Below, one piece after another: positions 1-33,819 of a stretch of DNA of 64,000 nucleotides (the stretch's first letter is position 1; each line of letters begins with the position of its first letter). The DNA is from Luminiphilus syltensis NOR5-1B (GTDB lineage Bacteria; Pseudomonadota; Gammaproteobacteria; Pseudomonadales; Halieaceae), in NCBI RefSeq assembly GCF_000158175.1, contig NZ_DS999411.1, positions 840,596 to 904,595 of the forward strand, written 5' to 3'. A model generated the notes under the pieces. The model was given only the letters and a program-made list of their open reading frames with translations, had not been told where the DNA came from and made no database searches. The translations under genes and the position numbers were made by a program.

Positions 1-39
1 ACCGGCCGCAAATTCGGCAAGGGTTCCCGTGCTATTCAT
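1..39 (-). CDS. Probable MmgE/PrpD family protein, N-terminal fragment (cut by window edge)
   Basis: Only the first 13 codons are inside the window (MNSTGTLAEFAAG). The ATG ends at 39 and is preceded by a good ribosome-binding site (GAGGTGA). It lies 58 bases downstream of the NCS1 permease on the same strand, so the two probably share a transcript. The peptide resembles the start of the complete MmgE/PrpD protein at 3448-4821 (TSDLAKFAVD), and 'LAEF' a few residues in is a common beginning for this family. That resemblance is the whole basis of the call, so the product is tentative; that a gene starts here is more certain. Confidence 0.45.
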   Translation of the reverse strand, partial: MNSTGTLAEFAAG

Positions 40-97
40 AGTCACCTCTTATCGTGTGTTATGTCGGTGCTGAGTACACTTGTGAGTTATCTCGATC

Positions 98-1411
98 TCA
101 CAGAACGCTCGATTCCTGGGCTGCCTGTTTCGGCGTTGTGAACTGAGCCAGCAACCAATAGACAAACATCGCCACCAGCAAGCCTGTGAGCGAAGGCATC
201 ATGAAATCGGGGGATACCAGGGTTGACCCTGCACCGAGAAAATAAGCCAGCACCGCGACCCAGCCGGGTGCTGCGGCAGTCGGATCAGAGAAGCGCGACA
301 CATCCATGCGTTGGCATAAATAGAACTTCGCCAGCACGGGCCCGACCAGTGGTGGCACGATATTGGCCAGCAAGCTAATAAACGATTCGAAGTAGGCGTA
401 TACCCCGAAGGCCAGCAGCGTTCCAAAGAGACCCAGCACCAGCGTCATAACCCGTGGCGATCGCTGCGAAACCACTGCGGACTGTATTACCGGGAAGTAC
501 AGATTGGCGTTTCCAGAGGTCCAGAGCGCCAGGGTCATGGCGATAATACCCATTGCACCAAACAATGCGCCTTGCTGCTTGAGAAACACGGTGAAGTCAT
601 AACTTTGCATGACGATGGTGCTTACCGCTCCGAGAATCTGCATAAACCATTGCGCAAGCATGAGAGCGACAAAGGGGAAGGCCAATGCCACCCAGGTGCG
701 CTTGGCGAAACGCGTGTATTCGGACATCACCACGGCACCCACGATCCAGGAGCCAACGACCAGACTGAGCCCTTCGAGGTTGGTAATCGAGCCATCCGAC
801 GCGGCATCTGCGGCAGCGGAAAATTCACCCCAGCCACCGGCATCAGCGATCTGGCCGAAAAGGCTGTAAACACCCGTGACCAACAGCGCGACGGCCGCTG
901 GCACGCTAATCTTTTCGATCCCCTTAATACCAAAATAAGTGCTGAAGGTGATCAGCAGGCCCGCAGCGGATGCCGCCAGTAGATACAGTGTCCCCGCGTT
1001 CTCATTCGTCCAGGTATAACCGATCGCACCGGCAACAACGGCGTGCCATCCGGAAGCCATCAAAACAATCATAACCACCGGCAGCCAGGCGCCAAGCCGA
1101 CCATAGGTCAACTGGAACATCAGGCCACTATTTAGCGCCGTTTTATAGCCGACATAACCCACGCCACAACCGATAGCGAGGCTGGTTAAATTGCCGAAAA
1201 AGGTAATCCAAAGAAACGAGGCGGTATCGGTTTTCGTGATCAGGTTGCCACCAACAATCATTCCCGTGGCGAGAAAGCCCCAACAAAAGGCCGTAATCAG
1301 CAGCGGTAACGCGTTTTGCTTGTGCTCTGGCGAAACCGGTGACAGCGGATCATCAGGGTCTGAAACCGCCGCCTGGGCCTGATTGAGTACCTGTACCTGA
1401 TCTTCACTCAT
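98..1411 (-). CDS. NCS1-family cytosine/purine-type permease
   Basis: A 437-residue inner-membrane protein with about twelve hydrophobic segments after a soluble N-terminus of about 35 residues. The overall pattern and the early glycine-rich segment (GMIVGGNLI) match the nucleobase:cation symporter-1 family (CodB-like), which imports cytosine, purines, allantoin, hydantoins or thiamine-like compounds with a cation. The substrate cannot be read from the sequence. The start is supported by AGAGGA eight bases upstream of the ATG. A probable MmgE/PrpD gene follows 58 bases downstream, suggesting uptake and catabolism of a small nitrogenous or organic-acid substrate. CodB is about 419 residues, so the length is normal. 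Confidence 0.85.
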   Translation of the reverse strand: MSEDQVQVLNQAQAAVSDPDDPLSPVSPEHKQNALPLLITAFCWGFLATGMIVGGNLITKTDTASFLWITFFGNLTSLAIGCGVGYVGYKTALNSGLMFQLTYGRLGAWLPVVMIVLMASGWHAVVAGAIGYTWTNENAGTLYLLAASAAGLLITFSTYFGIKGIEKISVPAAVALLVTGVYSLFGQIADAGGWGEFSAAADAASDGSITNLEGLSLVVGSWIVGAVVMSEYTRFAKRTWVALAFPFVALMLAQWFMQILGAVSTIVMQSYDFTVFLKQQGALFGAMGIIAMTLALWTSGNANLYFPVIQSAVVSQRSPRVMTLVLGLFGTLLAFGVYAYFESFISLLANIVPPLVGPVLAKFYLCQRMDVSRFSDPTAAAPGWVAVLAYFLGAGSTLVSPDFMMPSLTGLLVAMFVYWLLAQFTTPKQAAQESSVL

Positions 1412-1785
1412 CGTGATTACATCCTCTCAGAATTCGCGCCATAAGCTTGATGATTCGCCAAGCGACCTTTTGATCGCAGAACCTGTCAATCGTAAAACGT
1501 TTCCCAAAGTAAAACCTGCGCGCCGGATAAGAATTCGGCTTCACGGCACCGCGGGCATCCACGATCCCGAAGCGTCAACGGTCTCAACCTTGAGCCTGCA
1601 CCACACCATGCTTCATAGCCTTTTTCAAGACAGGCGTAACAAAAGCGTTAGCCCAGGCCACTGGCAACATACTGGCTCAGTGCATAAAAAAACCAATCAC
1701 CATCCTGGTATCAGAAATCATGCATCGAGTCCGAAAGGGCATCGAGAGCCCGACATAGGCTCATGACACTAGCCACAATAAATCC
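1412..1785. other. Intergenic region upstream of the NCS1 permease gene
   Basis: About 370 bases without a convincing gene. It separates the minus-strand SDR gene (3' end at 1786) from the permease start and probably carries the permease promoter. A perfect TTGACA hexamer occurs on the minus strand near 1485-1490, but I see no good -10 box at the right distance. A short palindrome (AAACGTTT) lies next to it near 1496-1503. A 117-codon plus-strand reading frame here has no recognisable domain and no good start, and I treat it as chance. Confidence 0.5.
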
Positions 1786-2541
1786 CTATTGCGCGGAAAA
1801 CCCACCATCGATGACGTATTCGGCACCGGTCACGTAACCCGCCTCGTCCGACGCCAAAAAGACGGCCAGAGCTGCGATTTCTTCGGGCATGCCGAACCGG
1901 CCAACCGGCGTTAATGCTGTCCATTGGCGCTTGGCCTCGGGATCGGAGAAAAGACCTGCGACCATAGGCGTTTCCGTCACACCGGGAACAATGGTATTCG
2001 CCCTGATGTTGTCGCCGCCACATTGGGTGGCGACGTTCTTCATCAGGCTGATAACCCCGGCTTTTGCAGCGCCATAAGCCGTATTACCCAAACCCAGGAT
2101 CCCACCCGTGGAAGACGTACTGATAATCGAGCCGCCACCGCTTTCCCTCATCGCCCGCACCGCATATTTAGTGCAGAGAAAAGTACCGGTGAGATCGATG
2201 GCGATCACCTCGTCCCAGATGGCTTCATCCAAATCAGCGAGGGCGCCATCCTCTGCCGGCCAGAATACCGCCGCGTTGTTGTAGAGCACATCCAGCTTGC
2301 CATGCTTTGCAACCGTCGAATCAATAAGCGCCCGAACATCGGCAGCGACGGTGATATCGGTCCTGAAAAAGCTGATCTCTGCGTCACTGCTGGCAAGTTG
2401 CCCGACAACGCGGTCTCCTTTTTCCTGGTCTCGCGCCGCGATGACCACTTTGGCACCTTCCTCGAGGAACCGACGGGTTGACGCCAAGCCAATACCTTCC
2501 GTACCTCCGGTAATAATCGCTACTTTATTTTTAAGTCGCAT
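1786..2541 (-). CDS. Short-chain dehydrogenase/reductase (classical SDR)
   Basis: A cytoplasmic 251-residue NAD(P)-dependent oxidoreductase with all classical SDR landmarks: the nucleotide-binding TGGTEGIG motif near residue 12, NNAA near 90, a catalytic Ser around 140 followed by YxxxK (YGAAK), and a C-terminal YVTGAEYVIDGGF substrate-loop ending. Length is typical of 3-oxoacyl-ACP-reductase-like SDRs. The start is supported by GAGGTGA just upstream. Neighbours are a nitroreductase and an MmgE/PrpD protein on the same strand, so a catabolic role is likely. The substrate cannot be inferred from sequence, and FabG-like activity in fatty-acid synthesis is less likely given the setting. Confidence 0.9.
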   Translation of the reverse strand: MRLKNKVAIITGGTEGIGLASTRRFLEEGAKVVIAARDQEKGDRVVGQLASSDAEISFFRTDITVAADVRALIDSTVAKHGKLDVLYNNAAVFWPAEDGALADLDEAIWDEVIAIDLTGTFLCTKYAVRAMRESGGGSIISTSSTGGILGLGNTAYGAAKAGVISLMKNVATQCGGDNIRANTIVPGVTETPMVAGLFSDPEAKRQWTALTPVGRFGMPEEIAALAVFLASDEAGYVTGAEYVIDGGFSAQ

Positions 2542-2699
2542 CGCTCACCTCGGTTAACTACGGATCAGTGAAAAGTCATCAGCGCAAATGACTAACTTCT
2601 GCTAGCGTCAGCTCCCGCATCAGCTGATTGGTGGAAACTCCTGAAGGAGCTTTGATACCGAGGATAGTCGCGCCAGACTATCAACCGTCAAAATCCTGA

Positions 2700-3368
2700 T
2701 TACTTGAGGAAGGTGCAGAAATCGTCGATTTCAGCGCGACCCATATTGATGTCGTACGCTGAAGACTCCTCATCCGAGTAACCAATCGACATACCAAATA
2801 ACAATTTCAGGTTGTCACCCACGCCGGTCTTCTCGCGAATCAACTGTGAGTGGAAACCCAGCGCGGTTTGCGGGCAGGAGCCAACGCCAAGACTTTCCAG
2901 CGCCAGCATGAAGGTTTGGGCAAACATACCTACATCGATCGCCTCGCGCAGCGAGTACTTGGGGTCGATAAAAAACAAGGCAACATTCGGTGCATCAAAA
3001 AACCGAAAATTTCTCATATAAATCTCGTTACGGCCTTCATCGTCGAGCCGGTCGATACCGAAACACTCTTGAAGTTTCTGCAGATGGTCGGCCTGGCGAG
3101 CCTCGTAAACACCGGAATAATCGCCTTCAAACGGAAAATCCAGGGTGAAGTCTGCTCGCGCACCCGCCTCACTGACGGCCTGGCGTAAGTCTTCACAGGC
3201 GTCCCCCTCGCAAAGCACCACATGCCATGGCTGGATGTTGTAATTGGAGGGTGCCTTACCCGCCAGGGCCAGCGCCTCCCTCAACACCTCCAGCGGTACC
3301 GCCTGCTTTTTAAACGCACGCACGCAATGGCGCGACTGCACAACATCTTCGAAATACTGTTTACCCAT
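2700..3368 (-). CDS. Nitroreductase-family flavoprotein
   Basis: A 222-residue cytoplasmic FMN-dependent oxidoreductase of the nitroreductase superfamily. Visible family marks are the N-terminal RHCVRAFKKQ segment (the 'RRSxRxF' region that contacts the FMN phosphate), the APSNYNIQPWHVVL segment near residues 39-52, and the C-terminal 'GMSIGY' core strand. The family uses NAD(P)H to reduce nitroaromatics, quinones or enoate-like compounds; the natural substrate here is unknown. It lies between an SDR gene (158 bases downstream) and an MmgE/PrpD gene (79 bases upstream), all on the minus strand, and may be co-transcribed. No strong ribosome-binding site is seen before the ATG. Confidence 0.88.
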   Translation of the reverse strand: MGKQYFEDVVQSRHCVRAFKKQAVPLEVLREALALAGKAPSNYNIQPWHVVLCEGDACEDLRQAVSEAGARADFTLDFPFEGDYSGVYEARQADHLQKLQECFGIDRLDDEGRNEIYMRNFRFFDAPNVALFFIDPKYSLREAIDVGMFAQTFMLALESLGVGSCPQTALGFHSQLIREKTGVGDNLKLLFGMSIGYSDEESSAYDINMGRAEIDDFCTFLK

Positions 3369-3447
3369 AGTTCAACAACACCTGATTAACCAGAAAATTT
3401 AATGCCAAACCTATGGCATTGCCTGACACCTCACCGAAGTTCGACCT

Positions 3448-4821
3448 TTATCCGCTGGTCAACTTGATCAGCTCGGCCACATCGCTCTCCAACTCCAGTT
3501 CCAATACTCTCTTCTCTGCCTCGGAAATAACAGCCTCACTCAACCGCGTTGAGGCGAGCAATCTGAACTTTCCGATAATCTCGTTTCTTCCGTACTCGGG
3601 TTTGTCGTCGGGAAAGATGATCACCCGCTCATGGCAGTCACCGTTATTCATCGTGATCGCAACACGTTGCTTAAGCCGCTGCTCGTCGGAAAATAAAACA
3701 TCGGCCTCGGGATCCGACTGGACCTCGGTAACACTGAGCAGTCGCCTTAACTCAGGATTATTGATGGTGTCTTCCGAGTAAAGGTCTGGAGTTAGCGGCA
3801 GACGCATAATCGTCGAGCAGACGGTGTAGGGAATAGAAAACATGGCGTCTACTTCGCGCCTTGGGTCGGTATCACCGATCGACGCGGACCAGAAGGTTTG
3901 AATCTCTACCGAGGCAACATCCTCGGGCGTTATCGAGTGCCCATCAACCAGCTCCACCGTCGCCCAGTAGGCGGGATGATTAAAGCCAATCGATGGATGA
4001 ATCTTGTACTCGGTATCGGGTGTCATCCAGTGCGACCCGAGTCCTTCCACCATCCGGTCGAAATCGCAGCGATCGCTGCCCGCCATCACCCAGAAACCCT
4101 GTTCACCGTCCAGGATACCTTTACCCCCGGCAAACCCTTTTTTGGCAGAAAGCGCGGCCATAACACCCGCCATACACATCCAACCCCAACCCATTTTGAC
4201 TTCCCGCATGGGCCGGGTCTCGGAAACCATGCCAAAATATTTATGTACCGAAGGTACGGTGCTGTAGGTGCCGGCAATACCCATTGCGACTTCCATTTCT
4301 TCAGCGCTTAGGCCCAGAATTTTTCCGGCGGTCACCGCCGCACCGATCGGCGTGTACTGTTCTCCCCAGACCTCAGCAGATCGCTCTGCCGACGGCTGCA
4401 TCGCGATACCAATACGGCCACCCACCTCATAGCCCACGGCCATTGCCGTAATAAAATCCTTGCCCGTAATATTTTTGGGTTCGCCAACGGCGCAGGCGGC
4501 CGCAAAACAGATGTAGCCCGGGTGGTAGATGTAATAAAGCATATCTTCGTAATCGAGGGCGAATCCCAGACTGCCGTTCGCGTAGGCTGCAAAAGGTACC
4601 GACACCTTCGTACCGTCACCGATGATTGAGGAAGACTCGGGCGCAACACCCAGTTCCTTGGCAAGCTCTACGTGCAGGCCACCGTTACGCGTCTCAAGAC
4701 CACCAAGACAGGTACCGAGAATATTGAGCGTGCCGCACTTAATGGTTTCGACAACATCATCCGGCAGGCTTTCGTAAGTTATGTCCACCGCAAATTTCGC
4801 CAAATCGCTTGTCACACCCAT
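3448..4821 (-). CDS. MmgE/PrpD family protein (2-methylcitrate dehydratase-like)
   Basis: A 457-residue cytoplasmic protein with the MmgE/PrpD fold. It has an all-helical N-terminal part (LAKFAVDITYESLPDDVV), the family sequence AAYANGSLGFALDYED near residue 80, VGYEVGGRIG near 130, and a C-terminal alpha/beta part. The family contains 2-methylcitrate dehydratase, cis-aconitate decarboxylase and many uncharacterised dehydratase or isomerase-like members. Nothing nearby (no prpB or prpC) points to the methylcitrate cycle. Together with the nitroreductase, the SDR and the NCS1 permease plus a second probable MmgE/PrpD gene at the left edge, it suggests breakdown of an unidentified small molecule. 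Length is normal. Confidence 0.85.
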   Translation of the reverse strand: MGVTSDLAKFAVDITYESLPDDVVETIKCGTLNILGTCLGGLETRNGGLHVELAKELGVAPESSSIIGDGTKVSVPFAAYANGSLGFALDYEDMLYYIYHPGYICFAAACAVGEPKNITGKDFITAMAVGYEVGGRIGIAMQPSAERSAEVWGEQYTPIGAAVTAGKILGLSAEEMEVAMGIAGTYSTVPSVHKYFGMVSETRPMREVKMGWGWMCMAGVMAALSAKKGFAGGKGILDGEQGFWVMAGSDRCDFDRMVEGLGSHWMTPDTEYKIHPSIGFNHPAYWATVELVDGHSITPEDVASVEIQTFWSASIGDTDPRREVDAMFSIPYTVCSTIMRLPLTPDLYSEDTINNPELRRLLSVTEVQSDPEADVLFSDEQRLKQRVAITMNNGDCHERVIIFPDDKPEYGRNEIIGKFRLLASTRLSEAVISEAEKRVLELELESDVAELIKLTSG

Positions 4822-8880: not shown

Positions 8881-11800
8881 CTACTGCAATGCGTCCAAAG
8901 TGCCGTAATCGGCACTCCTGACCACCAGCGTTCGGGTAATGGCTCGCGATTCCCCGCCGAACAACTCTTCCACCTCTCCCTCGGTGGGTACGATTCCAAT
9001 ATAGGGCTCCCGGAAGTCGATCTGCGGCCATAGAGCCAGCGGTGAATCCCCGAAGAGGCTATCAAGATCGGTCTCCGCGCAGAGGGCACTGTCATGCGCC
9101 AGTATCGCGAACGTCTCAAAGTCCCCAGCGCGCTCGGCCATCGCTTTGGCGAAAGACTCATCGAGTGCAACGGTGTCGGTCATCCTGTAATTACAGGAGT
9201 CGATGTAGGCCACTTTTTCAAGCGTCCCGGCTATGGAGAAACCGATCAACGTCAGGCCGCGCTTAAGATAGGTAGGCTCTGCGCCCCCATTCGGCTGTGC
9301 GTAGGATCGTCCCATCTCGTAACCCGCAGAACGGAGCTCGAAGGTGACCCATTCCTTCTCGATGGCCCAATCCGTAAATACCGAAGCCACGCCAGCGGCC
9401 TGACGCCGCTCAATCGCCTTGCGTTTATTTACCGTGCGGACCCAGGACAACACCCCTGCGTCCTCACGCGCTCTTGTAGCCAGATTTTTACCACCGCGGT
9501 CAGACGGAATCGCCAGTCCGTAAAGATTCATGCCTTTGATATGGCCCAGCACATGCCGGTTAGCGTACTCGTAACTCGATAGCGTCCATATCACCTGGTC
9601 AAAGCCCATGCCGGTCGCCTGATGGTATTCCAGGGGCGTATGGACCATTGGAATCACCTGCGGCAGCCAGTGGGCATGCTGCTCGGATACCTGCTCCAGA
9701 ATCGCGACCCGATCTTCAGGGACATCAAGCACCAATTTCTTATCGGGATGCGCTGCAAGCCAACTCTCAAGTAGTGATAGAGAGCAACGGGAAGCGACAA
9801 CCGATTCGGGTTCGGCGACAACGTCAGCCAGCGCCCCGCTGCCAGCCTCATGTCCAAAAACGCGGTGATAACTGGTCGCAGGGTCAGCAACGCAGGCCAG
9901 CGCACCGGAGTCGTCCCGGGACAGCGTGATCTCAAACAACTCATGCTCATCGCTGAAATGAGTCAAGGTGTCGCTCGGGGCACGATAGGTCTGATCTTCA
10001 AACCAGCCATCGGCATGTAACACCATGGGGAGATATTGGTGATCTTGCTGCCGGTGCAGGGGTACCGGCCGAACAAAATCCTCGATTTCCACAACCATTC
10101 CCTGCTCCAGCGTCTCGACGTACTCGGTGATCGCACCGTTGCCAGAGATAATGCCGATATAGGGCTCCCGCCAACCAATTTCATTCCACCGGCTCAAACC
10201 CGTACGTTGGAACAGAAACTCAAAATCGAAAGGGGAGCACAGCGCGCTGTCGTGGGCGATTACGACGAACGCACCAAACAGGCCACCCATCTCACTCATC
10301 ACCGAACCAAAGTCACCACGACCACCCCATTGGGTGGTCGTGGCGCCCGAGCAGGTATCCACATTGGCGAGCAACACAGGCTCGCCAGGGCTGTTGATCC
10401 CGAGCAGTGAAACGCCCCGAGGCACCAGGGTTTTCAGCTTCGACGCCGTATTCTGCAGATAGGAGCTTCCCGCCCGATGTCCGCCCGCCGACTTGATGAT
10501 GTAACTACCGAGGAGGTTGGTGTCGGGTACCGCGGTATTGAACTTGGTCGTTGAGTACTCTCTCAAGTGCTCCAGCTCAACGCGCCGTGCATCAGAGAGC
10601 CCACCGGTCATAGAGGTGCGATCGAAAAAGGTCTCGAAGGTATCAAAGGGGATGGTCTCCCCATCGGCGAGAATCGAGAAGCCTTTCTTGCGGCTGCCAA
10701 GACTGCCGTAAACCGCGCAAATCTGGCCTCGGGAGCCAAATTCACCATCGGCGAACCAGGCATTGATATGGCAGTCATCCACCCATACCAACGGCTGGTC
10801 GTATTCGAGCAGTGATACCGACTGCTGCAGCGACTGGCGGCCATTGAAATCGAAGAGAATCTGGGAAACGCTCAGATCTTCGTTTAACAGGAATAGCGCC
10901 GGATAGCGGACCTCGCGGTCGCCCAGCACCAGCATTTCGCTCGCTGAATCAAGCGTTACGCCATCGCTTACCCCGGGGAACGACCACAAGGAGAGGAAGT
11001 ATCCGCGAGCTCTGCTGAGGAAGTTATTGAAGCGGGATTTTTTTTGAAAAAGCTTCGGGCCTGAGCGAAGCAAATCACGACCAAATCCCAGCGCCTCCAC
11101 ATCGTAGCCCGCAAGCGTGAGCATGGTGGGGCCCACATCGATGGTTGAACCGCGGGTGTTTACACTGGCGGGCGTTAGGTCGTTGCCAAAAAACATCAGC
11201 AGATTCTTGCGATCACCGGTCTCCAGCAGCTCGGTCGCGCTGTTGGTCATCGCCAGATGATCGGAGCTGACCACGAGTAATGTGTTGTCAAAGATGTCGC
11301 TGCCACGAATCCGTTCGATAAACTCGGCTGCCATCTGGTCGGCACAATGTACGGCGTTGAGGATAGGGTTGCTGCCATCGCCATATACGACCTCCTCACA
11401 CCGCTCTGAGACGTGGCCGATAGGGTTATGCGTGTCGAGCGTCAGCATAAAAAAGACAAAGGGAGCATCGGCAGCGGCGAGCGCATCAAATTTCTCTTCC
11501 GCAATGGCGAACAGGCTGTCGTCGTAAAGGCCCCAGGATGACAGGTATTCCGGGTCGTCTAGTGTGCCGACGAGCTCCTCTCGCCCCTGGACATCATCAA
11601 ACTGGTGCGATGTATAAAAATTGCCCTTACCCGCAAAATCCAGCGCAGCACCGCCGAGATAGTTGAGGTGATAGCCCTGCTCGTGAAGCATGTCACCCAT
11701 ACAGTTCGCCCCCGGTAAAAACTGATCCGCGCCCGACATGGTATTGCCACCGGCGAGCAGGGGTATCCCGCACTGCGCAGCGGTCATGCCAGCAATCGTC

Positions 11801-12441
11801 CACTCGGTGCCAATGACCTGATCGATCGCGGTAAAGCTGATGGCCTCCTTTTCCAGTCTTTTTAAATTAGGCACCAGACCCGGAAAAATGGTTTCGTCAA
11901 AGTAGGTGCGCTCCACCGACTCGAGATAAATATGGACAATGTTTTTCTGCGGACCTGCGCTCCCTAACTTCACCTCCTGAACGAACTCAGGCGGGACAAC
12001 CGCCGTCGCTACGATATTCCGCGATTCATAAAGGCGGTAGAGATCAGCGCTGGCAGGATTCAGGTAAAAGGACAGGCCGACCAGACCAAACGCCGCAGCG
12101 ACCTGAAACTTGTGTCGGCCCAAGGTAGCGTCAGTCCGCATCAGGCGATAACTGAGGAGGCTTAGCAGAACAATCGTGACCATCGCGACCAGAGCAATGG
12201 CCATCGGGCCGATAAATGCACCGAGACCTGCTGAGAGGATATCGACGTCGAGATGGTAGATAACCGCTTCGTTGATGCCATCGCCCGAGAGCTGATCCGC
12301 CGCCAGATAAACGAGCACCAGCAACAACGATGAAAATACCGTTCCTGCCAGTAGGGCGGCGAGCCAGCGACTACCGAGTGCCCGGTAACACAACGCAACG
12401 GCAGCTAAGGCTAGGGTGGCAACGGTAAGAATAAGTGACAT
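8881..12441 (-). CDS. OpgB-like phosphoglycerol transferase with C-terminal ILEI-like / GDPD-like / ILEI-like modules
   Basis: An 1186-residue inner-membrane protein with a large periplasmic part. Residues 1-130 hold about four membrane segments. Residues about 165-455 form the alkaline-phosphatase/sulfatase-fold domain of OpgB/LtaS enzymes: metal ligand Glu in IYLESVER, probable nucleophile Thr in GTEWTIAGM (same context as in E. coli OpgB), DTHNP, and SSDHLAM. OpgB moves phosphoglycerol from phosphatidylglycerol to periplasmic glucans, releasing diacylglycerol; dgkA next door fits this. E. coli OpgB is about 760 residues. Here roughly 550 extra residues follow: an ILEI/FAM3-like domain (about 640-785), a degenerate GDPD-like barrel (about 795-1028) and a second ILEI-like domain (about 1033-1175). 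The catalytic call is solid; the accessory domains rest on pattern recognition. Confidence 0.85.
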   Translation of the reverse strand: MSLILTVATLALAAVALCYRALGSRWLAALLAGTVFSSLLLVLVYLAADQLSGDGINEAVIYHLDVDILSAGLGAFIGPMAIALVAMVTIVLLSLLSYRLMRTDATLGRHKFQVAAAFGLVGLSFYLNPASADLYRLYESRNIVATAVVPPEFVQEVKLGSAGPQKNIVHIYLESVERTYFDETIFPGLVPNLKRLEKEAISFTAIDQVIGTEWTIAGMTAAQCGIPLLAGGNTMSGADQFLPGANCMGDMLHEQGYHLNYLGGAALDFAGKGNFYTSHQFDDVQGREELVGTLDDPEYLSSWGLYDDSLFAIAEEKFDALAAADAPFVFFMLTLDTHNPIGHVSERCEEVVYGDGSNPILNAVHCADQMAAEFIERIRGSDIFDNTLLVVSSDHLAMTNSATELLETGDRKNLLMFFGNDLTPASVNTRGSTIDVGPTMLTLAGYDVEALGFGRDLLRSGPKLFQKKSRFNNFLSRARGYFLSLWSFPGVSDGVTLDSASEMLVLGDREVRYPALFLLNEDLSVSQILFDFNGRQSLQQSVSLLEYDQPLVWVDDCHINAWFADGEFGSRGQICAVYGSLGSRKKGFSILADGETIPFDTFETFFDRTSMTGGLSDARRVELEHLREYSTTKFNTAVPDTNLLGSYIIKSAGGHRAGSSYLQNTASKLKTLVPRGVSLLGINSPGEPVLLANVDTCSGATTTQWGGRGDFGSVMSEMGGLFGAFVVIAHDSALCSPFDFEFLFQRTGLSRWNEIGWREPYIGIISGNGAITEYVETLEQGMVVEIEDFVRPVPLHRQQDHQYLPMVLHADGWFEDQTYRAPSDTLTHFSDEHELFEITLSRDDSGALACVADPATSYHRVFGHEAGSGALADVVAEPESVVASRCSLSLLESWLAAHPDKKLVLDVPEDRVAILEQVSEQHAHWLPQVIPMVHTPLEYHQATGMGFDQVIWTLSSYEYANRHVLGHIKGMNLYGLAIPSDRGGKNLATRAREDAGVLSWVRTVNKRKAIERRQAAGVASVFTDWAIEKEWVTFELRSAGYEMGRSYAQPNGGAEPTYLKRGLTLIGFSIAGTLEKVAYIDSCNYRMTDTVALDESFAKAMAERAGDFETFAILAHDSALCAETDLDSLFGDSPLALWPQIDFREPYIGIVPTEGEVEELFGGESRAITRTLVVRSADYGTLDALQ

Positions 12442-12523: not shown

Positions 12524-12910
12524 TCACAGCAAAATTACCGACCAGACGACAACGATGATCAAGAGACCAATCATCTGCGCCGCGCTGCCAACGTCCTTGG
12601 CCGCCTTCGACAGCGGGTGCAGTTCCATGGAAATACGATCAACGGTATTTTCAATGGCGGTATTCAGAAGCTCTATGACCAGTGACAGCAACGGGGCCAA
12701 CATCAATAAAGCGCGCTCCGCACGGCTCACATCCAGCCAGAGCGCCAGCGGCTGAAGAAGCATGTTGATAAATACGACCTGGCGAAAAGCATCCTCGTTG
12801 ACAAATGCCGTTCGCAATCCCATTAGCGAATAACGACTGGCGTTGATCAGGCGTGAAAGGCCCCGCTTGCCCTTTAAAGACCCCGCGCCGCTTTCTGAAT
12901 CCTGCTCCAT
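12524..12910 (-). CDS. dgkA: Diacylglycerol kinase
   Basis: A 128-residue inner-membrane kinase with three hydrophobic helices. The hallmark block is complete: ELLNTAIENTVDRI followed by KAAKDVGSAAQ, which forms the ATP/metal site and active site of DgkA. The enzyme rephosphorylates diacylglycerol to phosphatidic acid. It lies 82 bases upstream of the OpgB-like gene on the same strand. In E. coli, OpgB is the main source of diacylglycerol that DgkA recycles, so the adjacency is functionally sensible. Start codon context is weak (no strong Shine-Dalgarno). Confidence 0.95.
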   Translation of the reverse strand: MEQDSESGAGSLKGKRGLSRLINASRYSLMGLRTAFVNEDAFRQVVFINMLLQPLALWLDVSRAERALLMLAPLLSLVIELLNTAIENTVDRISMELHPLSKAAKDVGSAAQMIGLLIIVVVWSVILL

Positions 12911-22498: not shown

Positions 22499-24505
22499 TT
22501 GAGTGTTGAAGAACTGCTGGAGGAGATAGATGCCGTTGGCTCGGGACCCGAGGTAGGGGCAATTTTTGATTTCGACGGCACCATTATCGCGGGCTACTCG
22601 GCCATGGTTTTTCTTCGCGATCAATTATCCAACGGCCATCTCAGCTATCGCGAGTTCGTCGAACTCTCCCGCGCCCTGGTCAGCTTTGGGATGGGTAATA
22701 TGGGCTTTTCTGCAATGATGGCCGTCCATGCCCAGTTCATGGTGGGAAGCACGGAAGATGACTATCGTGCAACCGGAGAACGCCTGTTCGAGAAAGGCAT
22801 CGCACGATTGATCTACCCCGAGTCCCGCCGCCTGATCGATGCGCATCGGCGCAAAGGCCACTCGATTGCCATCGTCAGCTCTGCGACCCCGTATCAGGTC
22901 GAGGCCTCAGCACGGGATCTCGATATAGAGCATCTTTATGCCACCCGCCTCGAAGTGGAAGACGGCAAATTCACCGGCAGGGTGATTCGACCGACGTGTT
23001 TTGGCGAGGGCAAGGTCATCGCCGCTGAGGACTTTGCCGCCAAGACGGGCGCGGACCTCGACCGCAGTTTCTTTTATTCCGACAGTACCGATGATATTCA
23101 GCTGCTCGAGCGCGTCGGCCGACCCGTCGCGCTCAACCCAAAATCAAAACTGGAGCGGGTTGCGCGGGAGCGAGGCTGGCCACTGGCGACTTTTGATAGC
23201 CGGGGAGGAGTAAAACCCGGTCAGGTCGTGCGCTCGATGGCAGCCACCGGATCGTTGATTTCCAGTGTGGTCGCCGGGTTACCCATTGCCGCGCTTTCCG
23301 GTAAAAAGCGTGATGGTTTCAACTTTTCCGCCTCACTGTTTGCCGATACCGCCAGTGCGATTATCGGGCTTGAACTCGATGTCTCGGGCGAGGAAAACCT
23401 GTGGACCCATCGACCGGCGGTTTTCATGTTCAATCATCAAAGCAAGACCGATGTCATCATCATGGCGAGTCTCTTGCGCCGGGATTTTTCTGGAATCGGC
23501 AAGAAAGAAATCAAGGATATGCCCCTGATTGGCGCCGCTATGCAGTACAGCGGCCTTGTCTTTATCGACCGCAGCGACGCTGCGGGTGCCATCGAAGCGA
23601 TGAAACCGCTAATTACGGCGCTACACGATGAAGGGCGCTCCGTCGTCATAGCCCCCGAGGGCACGAGAACACCCACCCCAAAATTAGCACCTTTCAAAAA
23701 AGGTGGGTTTCATATGGCAATGCAGGCCGGTGTACCCGTGGTTCCGGTCGTCATCCATAATGCAGGCGACATCGCGCCCAAAGGCGACTTCCTATTCCAC
23801 CCCGGGAAAGTAAAAGTAGAGATACTGCCAGCCATCCCCACCGCTGACTGGAAGCCGGGGTCGATCAACCGACACCTGACCGAGGTTCGCAATCAATTCC
23901 TGCACGCTCTGGGACAACCCGAACTGTCGGTCGTCGAAACCATTGCTGAAATGAAGGCCAGCAAACGCCGGACCGATCAAAAACCTGAAAAGCCGGCGCG
24001 TAAGCCTAGATTGAGCGGGGCAGTTGGCCTGATAAAAAGTGCGGGAACTGCACTTAAACGCAGTCGCGGTACTCCCGCAGACACCGACGAGAACGCACTG
24101 ATGGAAGAGGTGCCAGCAGCGAGCAATAAAGCGGCGCCTAAATCCCGGAAGACCGTTTCACCAGAAAAACGCAAAGCCAGTTCAAAAGCGGCAACCCGAA
24201 AAAAGACTGCCAAGAAAGCGACTGTTAATAAAAAATCGGCACAAAAAGTAAAAAAGGCTCCCGTTAAACGCAAGACAAAAGCAAAGGCAAAGTCCTCGAG
24301 TGCTGCCGCATCGCCTGTGAAAAAGAAGGCGGCTGCCAAAAAGTCACCGGCGCAGAAAACCAGCGTCAAAAAGCCGGCGAAAGCAAAAGCAGGTAACACC
24401 CGAAGCCGTTCAGCTGTAAAATCGAAGTCCAGCGCGCGAAAATCGACGCCGGCTAAGGCGCCGCGGAAAAAAACAGCCGCGAAGGTGAAACCCAAGAATC
24501 GCTAG
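22499..24505 (+). CDS. HAD-IB hydrolase / PlsC-type acyltransferase fusion with Lys/Ala-rich histone-like tail
   Basis: A 668-residue three-part protein. Residues about 15-215 are a HAD subfamily IB hydrolase (IFDFDGTIIAGYS nucleophile block, SSATPYQ motif II, FYSDSTDDIQLL motif IV). Residues about 290-470 are an acyl-glycerol-phosphate acyltransferase (FNHQSKTD as HxxxxD, PEGTRTPTP). From about 485 to the end is a tail very rich in Lys, Ala, Ser and Pro with repeated KKxAAKK-like clusters, resembling histone H1 or AlgP C-termini. HAD-PlsC fusions are known (mycobacterial Rv2483c). The start is a TTG with AGGAG about ten bases upstream. It precedes plsB by 15 bases, so it probably supplies the second acylation of glycerol-3-phosphate; the HAD role is unknown. 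Confidence 0.87.
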   Translation: MSVEELLEEIDAVGSGPEVGAIFDFDGTIIAGYSAMVFLRDQLSNGHLSYREFVELSRALVSFGMGNMGFSAMMAVHAQFMVGSTEDDYRATGERLFEKGIARLIYPESRRLIDAHRRKGHSIAIVSSATPYQVEASARDLDIEHLYATRLEVEDGKFTGRVIRPTCFGEGKVIAAEDFAAKTGADLDRSFFYSDSTDDIQLLERVGRPVALNPKSKLERVARERGWPLATFDSRGGVKPGQVVRSMAATGSLISSVVAGLPIAALSGKKRDGFNFSASLFADTASAIIGLELDVSGEENLWTHRPAVFMFNHQSKTDVIIMASLLRRDFSGIGKKEIKDMPLIGAAMQYSGLVFIDRSDAAGAIEAMKPLITALHDEGRSVVIAPEGTRTPTPKLAPFKKGGFHMAMQAGVPVVPVVIHNAGDIAPKGDFLFHPGKVKVEILPAIPTADWKPGSINRHLTEVRNQFLHALGQPELSVVETIAEMKASKRRTDQKPEKPARKPRLSGAVGLIKSAGTALKRSRGTPADTDENALMEEVPAASNKAAPKSRKTVSPEKRKASSKAATRKKTAKKATVNKKSAQKVKKAPVKRKTKAKAKSSSAAASPVKKKAAAKKSPAQKTSVKKPAKAKAGNTRSRSAVKSKSSARKSTPAKAPRKKTAAKVKPKNR

Positions 24506-24520
24506 GAGTTCTAGCAGATA

Positions 24521-26887
24521 ATGCCGAAGTTCCCCGAAGCAAAACTGGCTGAATCGCCGTGGCCAAAGGGGGCCGAAGCCGTCATTTTCATCATCGATGC
24601 CCGGTCCAGCTTCGAACGAAGCATTCTCGAAGATTGGATCAGCCGTCATGATAAGTCCGGCGTCCCGAGCAAAGTCATACCCCTTGAGCTCGGCGATGAT
24701 CGTAAGCCGCTCAATGTGGGCGCGCTGGACCGAGCCATCGTGCGACTGCCCAATGCGGTCGTGGCCCCGCTGCGTATTGCCTGGGTACACAGTAGGCGCT
24801 CGATCCAGTCCGGACCGCGACTGGTCGACTTTCTTCGCGGCAGTGACTACCGACCCTCGCTATGGCGGCAAAAATACCTCGCCGAAAAGCGTCCAGAGCG
24901 AATGCGTCTCGTGCTGGGTGAGCCTGGATCGCTCGATGATCTGAGTGCGCGATTTAAAAATAAATATCAGCAAGAGCCCGCCGCGAGGCCCGCCGATTTT
25001 TCGATTTTCGTTGCCCGTCAGGCGGCGATTGTGCTCGATATGGGCGAGCGAAAGCTACGCGGTGGCCGCTATAAGGTTCCACGTTATGTGGTTCATAGCC
25101 TTCGCAACAACCCCGATTTTCAGGAAAAACTACGCGCCATTGCCGATGAGCGGCAGGTGCCGCTCGCGGAGGTGCAGCGGGAGGTCAATGACTATTTTGG
25201 CGAGATGATTTCCGTGCCCAATCATTTTTGGCTCGATGTTTTTGCCAAGATTAGCAATCTCTGCCTGAGCCTCGGTTACGAACCCGAACTGCGCTACGAC
25301 AAAAGCGACCTCGAGCGAATACGGGCCATGGTGCGCGAATATCCCTCGGCGCTGCTGTGGACCCACAAAACCTATCTCGATGGGTTTGCGGTCCCAAAAA
25401 TCATGTTTGAAAATGACTTTCCCATGCCGCACATGTTCGGCGGTGCCAACCTTAATTTTCCCGGCCTCGGTTTCCTGCTTCGCCGATCTGGGGGCATTTT
25501 TATAAAACGCAGTTTCGCCGACAACGAGGTTTATAAAGCCACCCTGCGTCAATACATCGGCTACCTGATGGAGAAGCGATTCCCGCTGACCTGGTCCTTT
25601 GAAGGCACGCGTTCGCGTCTGGGCAAGCTGATGCCACCGAAATTTGGCATTCTCAAATACGTACTCGAGGGCTGTAGCCATTCGGGGGCGCGCAATATCC
25701 ATATTATTCCGGTTGCGGTGACCTACGATCTGCTGCGCGATGCGGAGGAATATGCCCGCGAACAGAGTGGGGTACCCAAGGCGCCTGAATCACTTAGCTG
25801 GATGGTGGGTTATATCCGCAGTCTTGCGAAGCCCATGGGCAAAATCTACGTTGATTTCGGCGAACCAGTGATATTACCGGAGGCGCCAGACCCCGACGAC
25901 AAACTGGCGCTATCCAAAGTCGCCTTCCAGGTCGCGGTAGAAGTCAACCGGGTGACACCCATCACCCTGCCGGCGCTCATCAGCATGAGTCTACTCGCTG
26001 TATTTCCCCGCGCATTGACCGAGGAAGAGGTCATCGCAGACGTCGACCAGCTGGTGTCCTGGTGTGCAGCGCGCGAACTCAGACACTCGCCTGATTTTGA
26101 TAAACAGTACGCGGAAAACATGGAGACCCAGCTGCAACTCATGATCGACGAGGGCATCATCAGCCGGTTCGATGGGGGGCGCCAGGTGGTCTACGGCATT
26201 GTCGACGGTCAGGCACCGGTGGCCAGTTATTACCGCAATACCATTGTTCATTATTTCGTCAATCAGGCGATTACCGAGCTGGCCTTGCAGGCCGCGATTG
26301 ATGCCGCCAACGACGGTGCCAATCTTGAAGCGGTATTCTGGGCGGAAGTGGATAACTTGCGCGATCTGTTCAAGTTTGAGTTCTTTTACCCACCCAGCGA
26401 TGTCTTCCGCCGGGAAATTGCAGGGGAACTTGAGCGTATCGCACCCGACTGGCAGTCATTGTTCGAGCAGGGAAAAACCGGTTTACGGGAATTGCTTGGA
26501 CGCTTTACCCCATTGGTGGCCCATCGCTCACTACAGATGTTCATCGAGGCCTATGCCATTGCGGCAACCGTACTGGCGGAGTGGCCGAAAGATGAATTTT
26601 CGGAGCAGGATTGTGTCGAACACTGTATGAGTTTTGGTAAACAGGCTTTTCTTCAACGCCGCATCAGTAGCGACGCCTCGGTGGGTAAGCTATTGTTCAG
26701 CACCGCCTTTAAGGTACTCCAGTCTCGGGAGTTGGTGAATGCCAGTCGACCCGACGTTATCGAGGCGAGAAAACAACACGCGGCACGACTCGATGAGCTG
26801 ATGCGTCGTATCGAGTACATTCGCGCCTCCAGTATTGCCAGCCGAGGTGCGCTCACCCTAAGGGATTCTGTCCATGAAAGACTGTAA
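24521..26887 (+). CDS. plsB: Glycerol-3-phosphate 1-O-acyltransferase
   Basis: A 788-residue PlsB-type acyltransferase, close to the roughly 807 residues of E. coli PlsB. It transfers the first acyl chain from acyl-ACP or acyl-CoA to sn-glycerol-3-phosphate at the inner membrane. Conserved blocks are LLWTHKTYLDGF (HxxxxD near residue 285), GGIFIKRSF, TWSFEGTRSRLGKL near 365, and IHIIPVAVTYD. The N-terminal about 270 and C-terminal about 330 residues are the PlsB-specific extensions absent from PlsC. It sits between the HAD-acyltransferase fusion (15 bases) and gpsA (14-base overlap), in an order that matches the pathway from glycerol-3-phosphate to phosphatidate. Confidence 0.93.
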   Translation: MPKFPEAKLAESPWPKGAEAVIFIIDARSSFERSILEDWISRHDKSGVPSKVIPLELGDDRKPLNVGALDRAIVRLPNAVVAPLRIAWVHSRRSIQSGPRLVDFLRGSDYRPSLWRQKYLAEKRPERMRLVLGEPGSLDDLSARFKNKYQQEPAARPADFSIFVARQAAIVLDMGERKLRGGRYKVPRYVVHSLRNNPDFQEKLRAIADERQVPLAEVQREVNDYFGEMISVPNHFWLDVFAKISNLCLSLGYEPELRYDKSDLERIRAMVREYPSALLWTHKTYLDGFAVPKIMFENDFPMPHMFGGANLNFPGLGFLLRRSGGIFIKRSFADNEVYKATLRQYIGYLMEKRFPLTWSFEGTRSRLGKLMPPKFGILKYVLEGCSHSGARNIHIIPVAVTYDLLRDAEEYAREQSGVPKAPESLSWMVGYIRSLAKPMGKIYVDFGEPVILPEAPDPDDKLALSKVAFQVAVEVNRVTPITLPALISMSLLAVFPRALTEEEVIADVDQLVSWCAARELRHSPDFDKQYAENMETQLQLMIDEGIISRFDGGRQVVYGIVDGQAPVASYYRNTIVHYFVNQAITELALQAAIDAANDGANLEAVFWAEVDNLRDLFKFEFFYPPSDVFRREIAGELERIAPDWQSLFEQGKTGLRELLGRFTPLVAHRSLQMFIEAYAIAATVLAEWPKDEFSEQDCVEHCMSFGKQAFLQRRISSDASVGKLLFSTAFKVLQSRELVNASRPDVIEARKQHAARLDELMRRIEYIRASSIASRGALTLRDSVHERL

Positions 26888-29058: not shown

Positions 29059-29083
29059 AAATTTGCCGTTTGCATGCAAATTT
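29059..29083 (+). promoter_or_regulatory. Hairpin in the 5' leader of the TonB receptor mRNA
   Basis: Arms AAATTTGC (29059-29066) and GCAAATTT (29076-29083) are exactly complementary around a nine-base loop. A 12-base perfect palindrome, TTTGCATGCAAA at 29069-29080, overlaps it. It could be a transcription-factor site or a leader RNA structure. It lies some 40 bases before the chosen ATG. Confidence 0.4.
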
Positions 29084-29121
29084 TTGGTGCTAACCGTATT
29101 CTGACCAAGGACCCGCTAACC

Positions 29122-31769: not shown

Positions 31770-31796
31770 AATGCCCCCGCGCGGGGCATTTTTTTT
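31770..31796 (+). terminator. Rho-independent terminator after the TonB receptor
   Basis: A GC-rich stem with arms AATGCCCC and GGGGCATT around a short CG-rich loop, followed by eight T residues. It lies 26 bases past the receptor stop codon and is the clearest intrinsic terminator in the window. Confidence 0.9.
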
Positions 31797-31812
31797 GCAT
31801 CGGAGAACAATC

Positions 31813-33819
31813 ATGACCACAGATCCCATTGCCGCCATGGATTCTGAAAGCGAACGTCTTGCGGCGATCCAAAACCTGCTGCGGGCCGGGGATCGGGACA
31901 AGGCGCGGAATGCGGTCAAGGCCTGGCTTTCCGATCAGCCCAAGCATCCGGAGGCACTGTATTTCTACGCCGTGATTCAACGGACCGACGGCCAACCTGA
32001 CTCCGCTATGCAAACCCTTGCCGAGCTACTGAAAATCCAGCCCGAACACAGCCGAGCGGTTCAAGAACTCGGGCACTGCCAACGGCAAATGGGAGCTACA
32101 GCACTCTCGCTTAAGTACTATCAACGTGCCACCAGAATGAACGCCTCATTGATCGCAAGCTGGCAAGGACAGCTCCATGCGCTTCAAAAACTGGGCCAAC
32201 GCAATGGCCTAAACCAAATAGCCGAACAAATCGACTATTTGAGGGCGCTGCCACCCCCGCTGCTGGCAGTGATGGATCTGCAAGCACGCGGCAAGCGATT
32301 GCAAGCCGAAGAACTTTGCAAACGTTTCATGCAGAAGAACCCGCGGCATATCGAGGGCATGCGTTTGCTCGCCGGGATCGCGCTTGAAATGGGAGCACTC
32401 GATGAGGCGGCGCTGCTGTTGACTACCGCGGAAAAAATCGCGCCCGCGAACCAGCGTGTACAGTTGGATTGCGTTCAGCTTGCAAGGCGTCAAAACAATC
32501 ACGATGAAGCGCGTCGCAGGGCCAACAAGCTCGCTAACAGCGATCCGGAAAATCTTCAGTTTCAATCTCTGGCTGCCATAGAAGCGTTACAGGTGAGTGA
32601 TTTTGAGGCTGCATTGGCGGGGTTTGAGCGGATTCTTGAGAAACAGCCCAACGACCCGGCGACATTGACCTCGCTCGGTCACACGCTAAAAACGATTGGA
32701 CGTGCCGAGGAGGCCATCAACCGGTATCGAAAGGCAACCGCCGTCCGCAGCGGTCATGGCGAGGGGTGGTACGCCCTGTCCAATCTCAAGACCTACCGCT
32801 TTGACGACGCAGACATCAATGCGATGGAAGCTTTATGTCGCGGCGATGAACTCGATCCAGGCCACATACCCTTTGTGCGCTTTGCACTGGGTAAAGCCTA
32901 TGAGGACCGGAGTGAATACGCCGAGTCTTTTACCCAGTATGCCGCGGGCAATGCGGCCAAACGGCAACAATCCTATTACGACGCCGACGATATGCACGCT
33001 GATATGCAGTCAATGGCCACGTTTTTTGACAGGGCTCTATTTGAACAAAAAGCAGGCAGCGGCGACGCCGATCCGGCCCCGATTTTTATTGTTGGCCTGC
33101 CCCGCGCAGGCTCCACACTTCTCGAACAGATCCTATCGTCACACAGCCAGGTCGACGGCACCCAGGAATTACCCAATATCCTTTCGATGGCGCAGCAGTT
33201 GCGTCGTCGCTCAGAGGACACCACATACCCGGAAATTCTGGCGGACATCGATGCCGACGAACTGCGCGCTATGGGAACACGCTTCATCGCCGACACCCGT
33301 ATCCACCGCGGCAACGCACCGTTCTTTATTGACAAAATGCCCAATAACTTCCGGCACATCGGTCTGATCAAGCTGATTCTGCCCAACGCCAAGATTATTG
33401 ACGCCCGCCGGCATCCCATGGCGTGCTGCTTCAGCGGCTTTAAGCAGCTATTCGCGGAGGGGCAGGAATTCAGCTACCAGCTTGCTGATATTGGGCGCTA
33501 TTATCGCGACTACGTTGAATTGATGTCGCACTGGCAGTCAGTGCTGCCCGGGCAGATTCTCCAGGTGAACAACGAAGACGTTATTGAGGATTTACCGGGG
33601 CAGGTCGCGCGATTACTGGAGTTTTGCGGCCTGCCTTTCGAAGAGCAGTGCCTGCACTATTGGGAAACCGAGCGCGCAGTAAAAACACCGAGTTCAGAGC
33701 AGGTTCGCCAACCGGTCTCGGATAAAGGCCAGCACCAGTGGCGAAACTACTCACCCTGGCTGGATCCTTTGCGTGAGGCGCTGGGATCCCATCTGGTTCG
33801 ATTATCCGAAGAGAGTTAA
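31813..33819 (+). CDS. TPR-repeat sulfotransferase
   Basis: A 668-residue protein with two halves. Residues about 10-400 are tetratricopeptide-type helical repeats (for example HPEALYFYAVIQRTDGQPDSA and DPATLTSLGHTLKTIGRAEEA). Residues about 425-660 are a PAPS-dependent sulfotransferase: PIFIVGLPRAGSTLLEQIL is the 5'-phosphosulfate-binding loop, and ARRHPMACCFSGFK is the 3'-phosphate-binding region. ATG 31813 has GGAGA upstream; the longer frame would begin inside the terminator hairpin, so it is rejected. Proteins of this type often lie beside TonB receptors in marine gammaproteobacteria and sphingomonads. The acceptor is unknown. Confidence 0.87.
   Translation: MTTDPIAAMDSESERLAAIQNLLRAGDRDKARNAVKAWLSDQPKHPEALYFYAVIQRTDGQPDSAMQTLAELLKIQPEHSRAVQELGHCQRQMGATALSLKYYQRATRMNASLIASWQGQLHALQKLGQRNGLNQIAEQIDYLRALPPPLLAVMDLQARGKRLQAEELCKRFMQKNPRHIEGMRLLAGIALEMGALDEAALLLTTAEKIAPANQRVQLDCVQLARRQNNHDEARRRANKLANSDPENLQFQSLAAIEALQVSDFEAALAGFERILEKQPNDPATLTSLGHTLKTIGRAEEAINRYRKATAVRSGHGEGWYALSNLKTYRFDDADINAMEALCRGDELDPGHIPFVRFALGKAYEDRSEYAESFTQYAAGNAAKRQQSYYDADDMHADMQSMATFFDRALFEQKAGSGDADPAPIFIVGLPRAGSTLLEQILSSHSQVDGTQELPNILSMAQQLRRRSEDTTYPEILADIDADELRAMGTRFIADTRIHRGNAPFFIDKMPNNFRHIGLIKLILPNAKIIDARRHPMACCFSGFKQLFAEGQEFSYQLADIGRYYRDYVELMSHWQSVLPGQILQVNNEDVIEDLPGQVARLLEFCGLPFEEQCLHYWETERAVKTPSSEQVRQPVSDKGQHQWRNYSPWLDPLREALGSHLVRLSEES

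Follow-up and report, generated by a model that had tools for sequence, protein, structure and literature searches.

The window analysed here is a stretch of 64,000 nucleotides from the genome of Luminiphilus syltensis NOR5-1B, which is probably a marine bacterium. A single ORF of 1186 codons occupies positions 8881-12441 on the minus strand. It encodes an OpgB-type phosphoglycerol transferase with three extra C-terminal domains, and the domain order is OpgB-type part, ILEI/FAM3-like domain 1, GDPD-type barrel, ILEI/FAM3-like domain 2. The dgkA gene lies 82 bp upstream, and the two genes likely form one operon. The features are as follows.

12524..12910 (-): dgkA, diacylglycerol kinase (PF01219, E 9e-32)
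11968..12441 (-), residues 1-158: N-terminal part aligning with the membrane part of OpgB (NF009027 match from residue 10, NF003000 from residue 1; hydrophobic by eye)
11062..11967 (-), residues 159-460: sulfatase/LtaS-type catalytic domain (PF00884 and PDB matches; E174, T215, H338, D394, H395)
10525..11061 (-), residues 461-639: OpgB-specific linker region (NCBIfam OpgB profiles to residue 566 or 586; aligned in five OpgB-ILEI relatives)
10051..10524 (-), residues 640-797: ILEI/FAM3-like domain 1 (duplicate of domain 2; AlphaFold2 and Foldseek BFVD; candidate sugar-binding trio R675, D731, R758)
9352..10050 (-), residues 798-1030: GDPD-type TIM barrel with a degenerate active site (homology to L011; alignment with L025 and L026; Foldseek PDB)
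8884..9351 (-), residues 1031-1186: ILEI/FAM3-like domain 2 (homology to domain 1; candidate trio R1061, D1117, R1144)

The preliminary description had called the same four domains in this order, and these calls are borne out by OpgB profiles, a BFVD fold match, homology to the GDPD of a relative (L011) and GDPD folds in the PDB.

Transferase part

The N-terminal half of the protein is readily recognized. NF009027 (OpgB) matches residues 10-566 (E 3e-117), positions 1-583 of NF003000 align to residues 1-586 (E 3e-110), and PF00884 covers residues 166-446 (E 3.4e-29). In the PDB the catalytic part matches 3lxq (E 4e-28) as well as 4uop (E 4e-8) and 4uoo (E 2e-7). The last two place it in the same catalytic superfamily as the lipoteichoic acid synthases LtaS and LtaP, which to our knowledge are Gram-positive polymerases that lack the C-terminal domains described here. 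The columns of E174, T215, H338, D394 and H395, which we take to be the LtaS/OpgB active-site residues (Glu, Thr nucleophile, His and Asp-His), are invariant in all 12 alignment rows, and the ORF thus has the full residue set of a sulfatase/LtaS-type catalytic domain.

The ORF resembles E. coli OpgB (MdoB, phosphoglycerol transferase I) throughout residues 1-586 and in these five presumed active-site columns. However, it scores below the equivalog cut-offs of both NCBIfam OpgB models (393 against 572 bits and 369 against 574 bits) and is therefore filed as an OpgB-type homologue, not an OpgB equivalog; E. coli OpgB itself scores 1595 bits on NF003000 and 363 bits on NF009027. The two proteins also part ways at the C-terminus, where the 763-aa E. 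coli enzyme has DUF7024 at 616-759 and the 1186-aa ORF has ILEI-GDPD-ILEI. We rejected the idea that the ORF simply has the E. coli tail; hhalign of the one E. coli sequence against the ILEI alignment gave a probability of 0.2%.

ILEI/FAM3-like domains

The two segments that flank the barrel (residues ~640-797 and ~1031-1186) are 35% identical over 122 residues (BLASTP, E 8e-26 in a one-sequence database) and are, judged from sequence, homologous duplicates. Their identity as ILEI domains comes from predicted fold. An AlphaFold2 model of domain 1 (pLDDT 87, pTM 0.87) has a viral ILEI-domain protein as its best Foldseek match in BFVD (E 3.8e-6, TMq 0.66), one of only two matches at E <= 0.001, and hinge connectors follow at E 1e-3 to 1e-2. 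The ILEI beta-fold proposed in the preliminary description is thus supported in BFVD, but the same model has no PDB match at E <= 0.001.

Sequence profiles did not recognize these domains. The preliminary description had pointed to Pfam PF15711 (ILEI) and PF03009 (GDPD), and neither profile matched the ORF segments. PF15711, presumably the GG domain that also occurs in T4 gp35, matched 0 of 8 family members at E <= 10, a range in which HMMER filters drop most matches above ~0.1; it likewise had no match in 249 genomes of the phylum, where none of 14 controls matched either. Direct scans of the ILEI domain against Pfam, NCBIfam and PHROGs returned at best one-member matches (E 0.22 and 0.33), and the best hit of our ILEI profiles among PDB sequences was norsolorinic acid synthase at E 0.04. 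The profile match to domain 2 (E 7.7e-59) comes from a profile that includes the domain 2 row itself. Compared with the known ILEI/FAM3/POMGnT1-stem family, the ORF domains share a predicted fold but differ by having no PF15711 sequence match, by their fusion to a transferase and by their occurrence as two copies around a GDPD.

Sugar binding by these domains may be proposed from their ILEI relatives. A passage of PMC9802357 lists FAM3C, FAM3A, Fam3L2 and the POMGnT1 stem as ILEI relatives that bind sugars and attributes binding by the stem to R129, D179 and R207. Both ORF copies have an R/D/R trio in the same order with spacings of 56/27, versus 50/28 in the POMGnT1 stem, as mapped by spacing and not by alignment. 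All 7 rows of an ILEI alignment agree at R675, D731 and R758; these rows do not include the first ILEI domain of the Rhodobacterales relative L025, where the D and second R are lost. These observations bear on an alternative that we consider unlikely, in which the ILEI and GDPD folds are a ligand-free stem that distances the catalytic domain from the membrane or mediates oligomerisation. The trio lost in L025, the degenerate GDPD of the ORF and the different C-terminal domain (DUF7024) of E. coli OpgB would all suit a stem, but the invariance of the three trio columns in that alignment, the trio kept in both ORF copies and the intact GDPD motifs of four relatives (L025, L026, L011 and L018) argue against it.

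GDPD-type barrel and relatives

Residues ~798-1030 match the GDPD of L011, a sulfatase-GDPD fusion protein of the same order, at E 4e-17 (calculated for one genome). The L011 domain in turn matches PF03009 at 5e-12. The ORF domain is 25% identical to that of L011 and 32% identical to that of L025. A moderate AlphaFold2 model of residues 575-1186 (pLDDT 71.6, pTM 0.50) gave ten Foldseek PDB matches at E <= 0.001, and all ten are GDPDs or putative GDPDs, the best being 2pz0 (E 8e-6); the barrel expected by the preliminary description was thus found again by structure prediction. By homology and predicted fold this segment is a GDPD barrel, homologous to the PF03009 members L011, L025 and L026, and the L011 match and PDB folds rule out a chance likeness. 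When PDB sequences were searched with a GDPD profile, 15 chains matched at E <= 0.01. Nine are GDPD or GP-PDE, and six, with the best-ranked among them, are SAKe chains, which we took as an artefact since the score of the one SAKe alignment displayed is the sum of six 5-6-bit pieces. A further candidate relative, L012 (E 3e-4, 53 residues), was dropped after visual inspection of its locus revealed no GDPD gene.

The motifs named in the preliminary description are present as H809-A-D-G, E837-I-T839 and A852-D853, and D906 is also kept. T839 stands at what we take to be the position of the metal-binding Asp, and A852 at that of the second catalytic His of known GDPDs, so that the set of two His and metal-binding Glu/Asp is incomplete, with H809 and E837 retained. 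Because the metal Asp and catalytic His are lost, the barrel is probably non-hydrolytic, a reading taken from its motifs. In contrast, L025, L026, L011 and L018 have HAGG or HGGG (HRG in known GDPDs), ExD and HD, and the active-site motifs are complete in L025, L026 and L011. The earlier suggestion that phosphoglycerol is recognized, if taken as recognition without cutting, is therefore a possible reading for the ORF copy only (T839, A852), and cutting is likelier for the relatives. We find it decidedly improbable that the ORF barrel is also active, using shifted residues to remove phosphoglycerol or move it between glycans. The retention of H809, E837 and D906 and the existence of relatives with intact motifs would allow this, and a passage of PMC3818809 describes a soluble form of E. 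coli OpgB that moves phosphoglycerol between glucans. However, the His-to-A852 and Asp-to-T839 changes remove residues that are presumably needed in known GDPDs.

The same domain order, OpgB-ILEI-GDPD-ILEI, is found in L025, a 1185-aa protein from a Rhodobacterales MAG, and L026 from another Rhodobacterales MAG has it without the last ILEI domain, so the combination is not due to chance. Simple OpgB-ILEI proteins are present in a few relatives, and GDPD-sulfatase fusions without ILEI occur in L011 and L018. A related-locus search with the C-terminal 569 aa gave no matches in genome contigs or viral contigs, and a search of plasmids gave none either. A search of open-licence literature listings found no OpgB of such a layout, in agreement with the preliminary description, although L025 and L026 mean that the ORF is not unique. 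The recurrence in another bacterial group suggests a genuine type of enzyme that has apparently not been described before. In a tree (10 of 12 rows kept; the very long L011 and L018 rows had spoiled a first tree), domain 2 of the ORF has the second ILEI domain of L025 as its partner with 82/82 support, on long branches and not starred, and one clade of GDPD bearers is neither shown nor rejected (p-AU 0.461).

Acceptor and proposed mechanism

The position of dgkA fits a link known from E. coli, where opgB and dgk are connected via diacylglycerol according to a passage of PMC3818809. The E. coli genes are far apart in the genome, whereas dgkA adjoins the ORF. It also lies near opgB-ILEI in L002, L003 and L006. 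Of the 10 distinct loci with opgB-ILEI, the window included, only 4 were seen to have dgkA nearby. PF04349 (OpgG) has no match in the genome of the ORF, unlike E. coli, which served as a positive control; 2 of the 58 genomes searched have it. The E. coli OpgG and OpgH proteins gave no match in the ORF genome either, in a search run with no positive control. The preliminary description had proposed that a glucan is recognized; since no OpgG was found, the acceptor is probably not the classical osmoregulated periplasmic (OpgGH) glucan.

The explanation to which we give about even chances as a whole is a membrane phosphoglycerol transferase whose ILEI arms hold the glycan and whose GDPD, active as a hydrolase in relatives, is a binding or structural domain here. 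By analogy with OpgB, the membrane-anchored transferase would take sn-1-phosphoglycerol from phosphatidylglycerol and place it on a periplasmic or surface glycan, and the diacylglycerol left over would pass to the neighbouring DgkA. The two ILEI domains, like their sugar-binding relatives, may act as arms that hold the acceptor chain, and ILEI-GDPD-ILEI may have been inherited as one cassette. The Rhodobacterales GDPDs probably still hydrolyse glycerophosphodiesters, for example to trim phosphoglycerol from the glycan that the transferase modifies, or to recycle it, while the ORF barrel most likely only binds or serves as a structural spacer. Several results count against this explanation: the absence of a PF15711 match and of a PDB fold match for ILEI domain 1 at E <= 0.001, the missing matches to OpgG and OpgH, the bit scores below the OpgB cut-offs, the mapping of the R/D/R trio by spacing, the low identity of the ORF GDPD to those of L011 and L025, from which loss of activity is read by motif, and the small share of loci with dgkA nearby. 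Furthermore, the specificity of GDPDs is usually for esters of sn-glycerol-3-phosphate whereas OpgB adds sn-glycerol-1-phosphate, and this argues against a GDPD acting on what OpgB makes.

It is quite unlikely that the GDPD has, or had, a role in phosphate scavenging that is independent of the transferase's glycan, with lipids or free glycerophosphodiesters close to the membrane as its substrates. Phosphate is often scarce at sea, the record title of one relative (L022) names the North Sea, and the GDPD-sulfatase fusions lack ILEI; yet in both L025 and the ORF the barrel has an ILEI domain on either side and is thereby tied to the presumed glycan-binding arms. A more specific version of our preferred explanation appears doubtful. 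Here a writer (OpgB), a reader (two ILEI lectin arms) and an eraser (GDPD) in one periplasmic chain would set the phosphoglycerol density of an OpgG-independent glycan, all being active in Rhodobacterales and the eraser having become a phosphoglycerol-sensing pseudoenzyme in the ORF lineage.

If the preferred explanation is right, a fold (FAM3/ILEI) that is familiar from secreted factors and from the stem of a human glycosyltransferase also serves a bacterial glycan-decorating enzyme, domains for adding and removing phosphoglycerol are held in one chain, and a new phosphoglycerol-bearing glycan would be expected in bacteria where no OpgG is found. The degenerate GDPD of the ORF and its motif-intact relatives form a natural pair for testing the role of the GDPD. 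A GT2/deacetylase gene adjoins the L026 gene, and a search for it in the genome of the ORF gave matches to the GT2 core only.

An OpgB-type enzyme with duplicated tail domains

The gene at 8881-12441 (minus strand) is a single open frame of 1186 codons. Residues 10-566 are covered by the OpgB model NF009027 (E 3e-117, 393 bits against a cut-off of 572) and residues 1-586 by NF003000 (E 3e-110, 369 bits against a cut-off of 574); for comparison, E. coli OpgB itself reaches 1595 bits with NF003000 and 363 with NF009027. The catalytic part also has matches to Pfam Sulfatase (E 3e-29) and, in the PDB, to chains 3lxq (4e-28), 4uop (4e-8), and 4uoo (2e-7). In the catalytic-domain alignment, the columns of E174, T215, H338, D394, and H395, which we take to be the active-site positions of the LtaS/OpgB group, are invariant in 12 of 12 rows. 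Because of these matches and invariant columns, the protein is, as judged from its sequence, an OpgB-type enzyme whose active site appears intact, although it scores under both OpgB equivalog cut-offs.

Beyond the OpgB part the protein extends for ~550 residues, within which residues ~640-797 (ILEI 1) and ~1031-1186 (ILEI 2) are duplicates: BLASTP against a one-sequence database aligns 122 residues of the two at 35% identity (E 8e-26). Pfam, NCBIfam, and PHROGs scans gave nothing significant for the ILEI domain, and PF15711 (ILEI) matched 0 of 249 genomes of the phylum and 0 of 14 controls either. An AlphaFold2 model of ILEI 1, computed from eight rows, is of good quality (mean pLDDT 87, pTM 0.87). 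It had no PDB fold match at E 0.001, the 50 listed resembling antibody chains (TMq ≤0.26). Against viral models, two matches reached E 0.001. The better one is a Fadolivirus protein annotated "Interleukin-like EMT inducer domain-containing protein" (TMq 0.66, probability 1.00, E 3.8e-6); the other, an Indivirus glycosyltransferase, has E 6e-5. Phage long-tail-fibre hinge connectors were among the next matches (ranks 5, 9, 12, and 15; E 1e-3 to 1e-2). A phage protein annotated as ILEI also appeared, at E 0.12. The preliminary description had called both flanking segments ILEI-like; the predicted fold matches a viral ILEI model, but PF15711 and the PDB fold search are silent. We take the modelled fold of ILEI 1 as ILEI, its sequence link to ILEI being unproven. 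A terminator scan placed a hairpin of 14 pairs with a 4-base loop at 10314-10345, within the ILEI 1 coding sequence; a terminator role is improbable.

The POMGnT1 stem binds beta-linked GlcNAc via R129, D179, and R207, residues conserved among FAM3 members, as described in portions of a C. elegans paper (PMC9802357). The same portions name FAM3C, FAM3A, and the FAMP-1 domain Fam3L2 as sugar binders, and Fam3L1, where neither the Asp nor the second Arg is conserved, as lacking sugar binding. Mapped by order and spacing only, the candidate trio is R675, D731, and R758 in ILEI 1 and R1061, D1117, and R1144 in ILEI 2, with spacings of 56/27 in both copies versus 50/28 in POMGnT1. In L025, a Rhodobacterales relative, the trio Asp and second Arg are missing from the first ILEI but retained in the second one, a pairing similar to Fam3L1/Fam3L2 as far as that source describes them.

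The GDPD segment

PF03009 (GDPD) found no match with the middle segment of the tail (residues ~798-1030) alone. The segment does match the C-terminal domain of the sulfatase-type protein L011, from a genome of the same taxonomic order (E 4e-17), and that L011 domain is itself a PF03009 GDPD (E 5e-12). Residues 575-1186 gave an AlphaFold2 model of moderate quality (pLDDT 71.6, pTM 0.50); the 10 PDB folds matching it at E ≤0.001 are without exception GDPDs or putative GDPDs, the best being 2pz0 (E 8e-6, TM 0.61 by target length). The L011 homology and these fold matches bear out the earlier reading of the segment as a GDPD barrel. Against PDB sequences, a two-row profile (window and L011) found 4 chains at E ≤1, all GDPD-type, and a five-row GDPD profile found 15 at E ≤0.01. 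Of these 15, 9 are GDPD-type; the other 6 are SAKe chains, taken as an artefact.

Hydrolysis by GDPDs depends on a metal Asp and a second His. The relatives L025 and L026 (both Rhodobacterales) and the sulfatase-GDPD fusions L011 and L018 carry HAGG or HGGG, ExD, and HD; the window carries HADG (H809), E837-I-T839, and A852-D853. Because the metal Asp and second His are replaced, hydrolysis should be abolished in the window GDPD. The reading frame of the segment is open throughout, and no close relative carrying this GDPD domain was found among the genomes searched.

Recurrence, rarity and descent of the layout

A scan of genome contigs, using an alignment of four ILEI rows and one 10-residue pattern, gave 31 fitting stretches, 5 of which encode a relative; query rows L006 and L003 had themselves been taken from L022 and L023, so that 3 of the 5 are new. 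L025 (MAG UBA3077, 1185 aa) has the same order, OpgB-ILEI-GDPD-ILEI, and L026 (Rhodobacteraceae MAG S139_41, 1042 aa) is OpgB-ILEI-GDPD, their taxonomy being the labels of the MAG records; both match PF03009 above cut-off. L024 (Marinobacter bryozoorum), L022 (K189A-clade MAG), and L023 have OpgB with one ILEI each. The order first noticed in the window thus recurs whole in L025 and without the last ILEI in L026, and is therefore shared, not window-only.

This OpgB variant is real and recurrent. It is apparently undescribed: among the open-licence papers listed on OpgB domains and on sulfatase/LtaS-GDPD fusions, none appears to describe this layout, in agreement with the preliminary description, and no paper was listed that joins a phosphoglycerol transferase with a GDPD or that treats DUF7024. 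How the enzyme works we can only infer. In the same-genus opgB-ILEI locus L002 (G016, 1-2010), two in-frame stops separate the catalytic part from the ILEI domain, reflecting either gene decay or assembly error.

Searches with an ILEI profile matched 5 of 390 genomes in the order, 1 of 369 in the class (the window's own), and 5 of 140 in the family, with two matches in the own genome alone in each search; these and the following GDPD counts are lower bounds, many genomes being incomplete and the 10-residue pattern of the contig scan strict. The window GDPD segment as query matched 3 of 390 genomes of the order (own, the L011 fusion, and L012, which was dropped). Window plus L011 matched 5 of 274 of the class: own, L018, whose GDPD is slightly under the PF03009 cut-off, and L019, L020, and L021, three ordinary HRG-type GDPDs by eye.

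L011 (G256, 1489-3666, minus strand) and L018 (G638, 1-2202, plus strand) join Sulfatase/OpgB-like and GDPD parts with no ILEI between, and so represent another way of fusing these two kinds of enzyme; L018 is adjoined by an ORF that looks, by eye, glycosyltransferase-like. L020 (G509, 1114-3276, minus strand) is an FGGY sugar/glycerol-kinase-like protein fused to its GDPD (both by eye), adjoined by a glycerol-3-phosphate dehydrogenase-like ORF.

Window ILEI 2 clusters with its counterpart in L025, the second ILEI there (82/82 support without a star, bootstrap unsettled, branches long), which would fit a cassette inherited as a unit without demonstrating it. A single clade of GDPD bearers in the catalytic-domain tree is neither shown nor rejected (p-AU 0.461).

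Donor and acceptor context

One gene lies close by:

82 bp upstream of the opgB-ILEI-GDPD-ILEI gene, same strand: dgkA

dgkA is also near opgB-ILEI in L002, L003, and L006, giving 4 of 10 distinct opgB-ILEI loci including the window; by eye, none was seen in the listed ORFs of L024, L025, and L026, or of L007, L008, and L034, where the count covers the downstream side alone (about 1.5 kb). In E. coli, opgB and dgkA are apart, whereas here only 82 bp separate dgkA from the opgB-type gene. Passages of one study state that E. coli OpgB draws on phosphatidylglycerol and that a dgk strain supplied with an artificial acceptor builds up diacylglycerol to a toxic level (PMC3818809).

PF04349 (OpgG) was found neither in the own genome nor in 36 genus relatives, several incomplete (2 of 58 genomes positive, E. 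coli control positive), and E. coli OpgG and OpgH as queries, run without a positive control, had no match in the own genome. Because none of these was found there, the acceptor is probably another glycan than the OpgG/OpgH-dependent one. The genus Luminiphilus is marine. GT2 genes lie directly upstream of the OpgB-ILEI-GDPD genes in L025 (3-1136) and L026 (3-2291, a frame that also encodes a polysaccharide deacetylase domain) and are candidate makers of the acceptor glycan.

Elsewhere in the window, adjacent lipid genes at 22499-26887 encode a HAD-acyltransferase fusion (22499-24505) and a glycerol-3-phosphate acyltransferase (24521-26887). A fusion of TPR repeats and sulfotransferase (PF13469) at 31771-33819 lies downstream of a TonB-dependent receptor plug protein (29074-31743).
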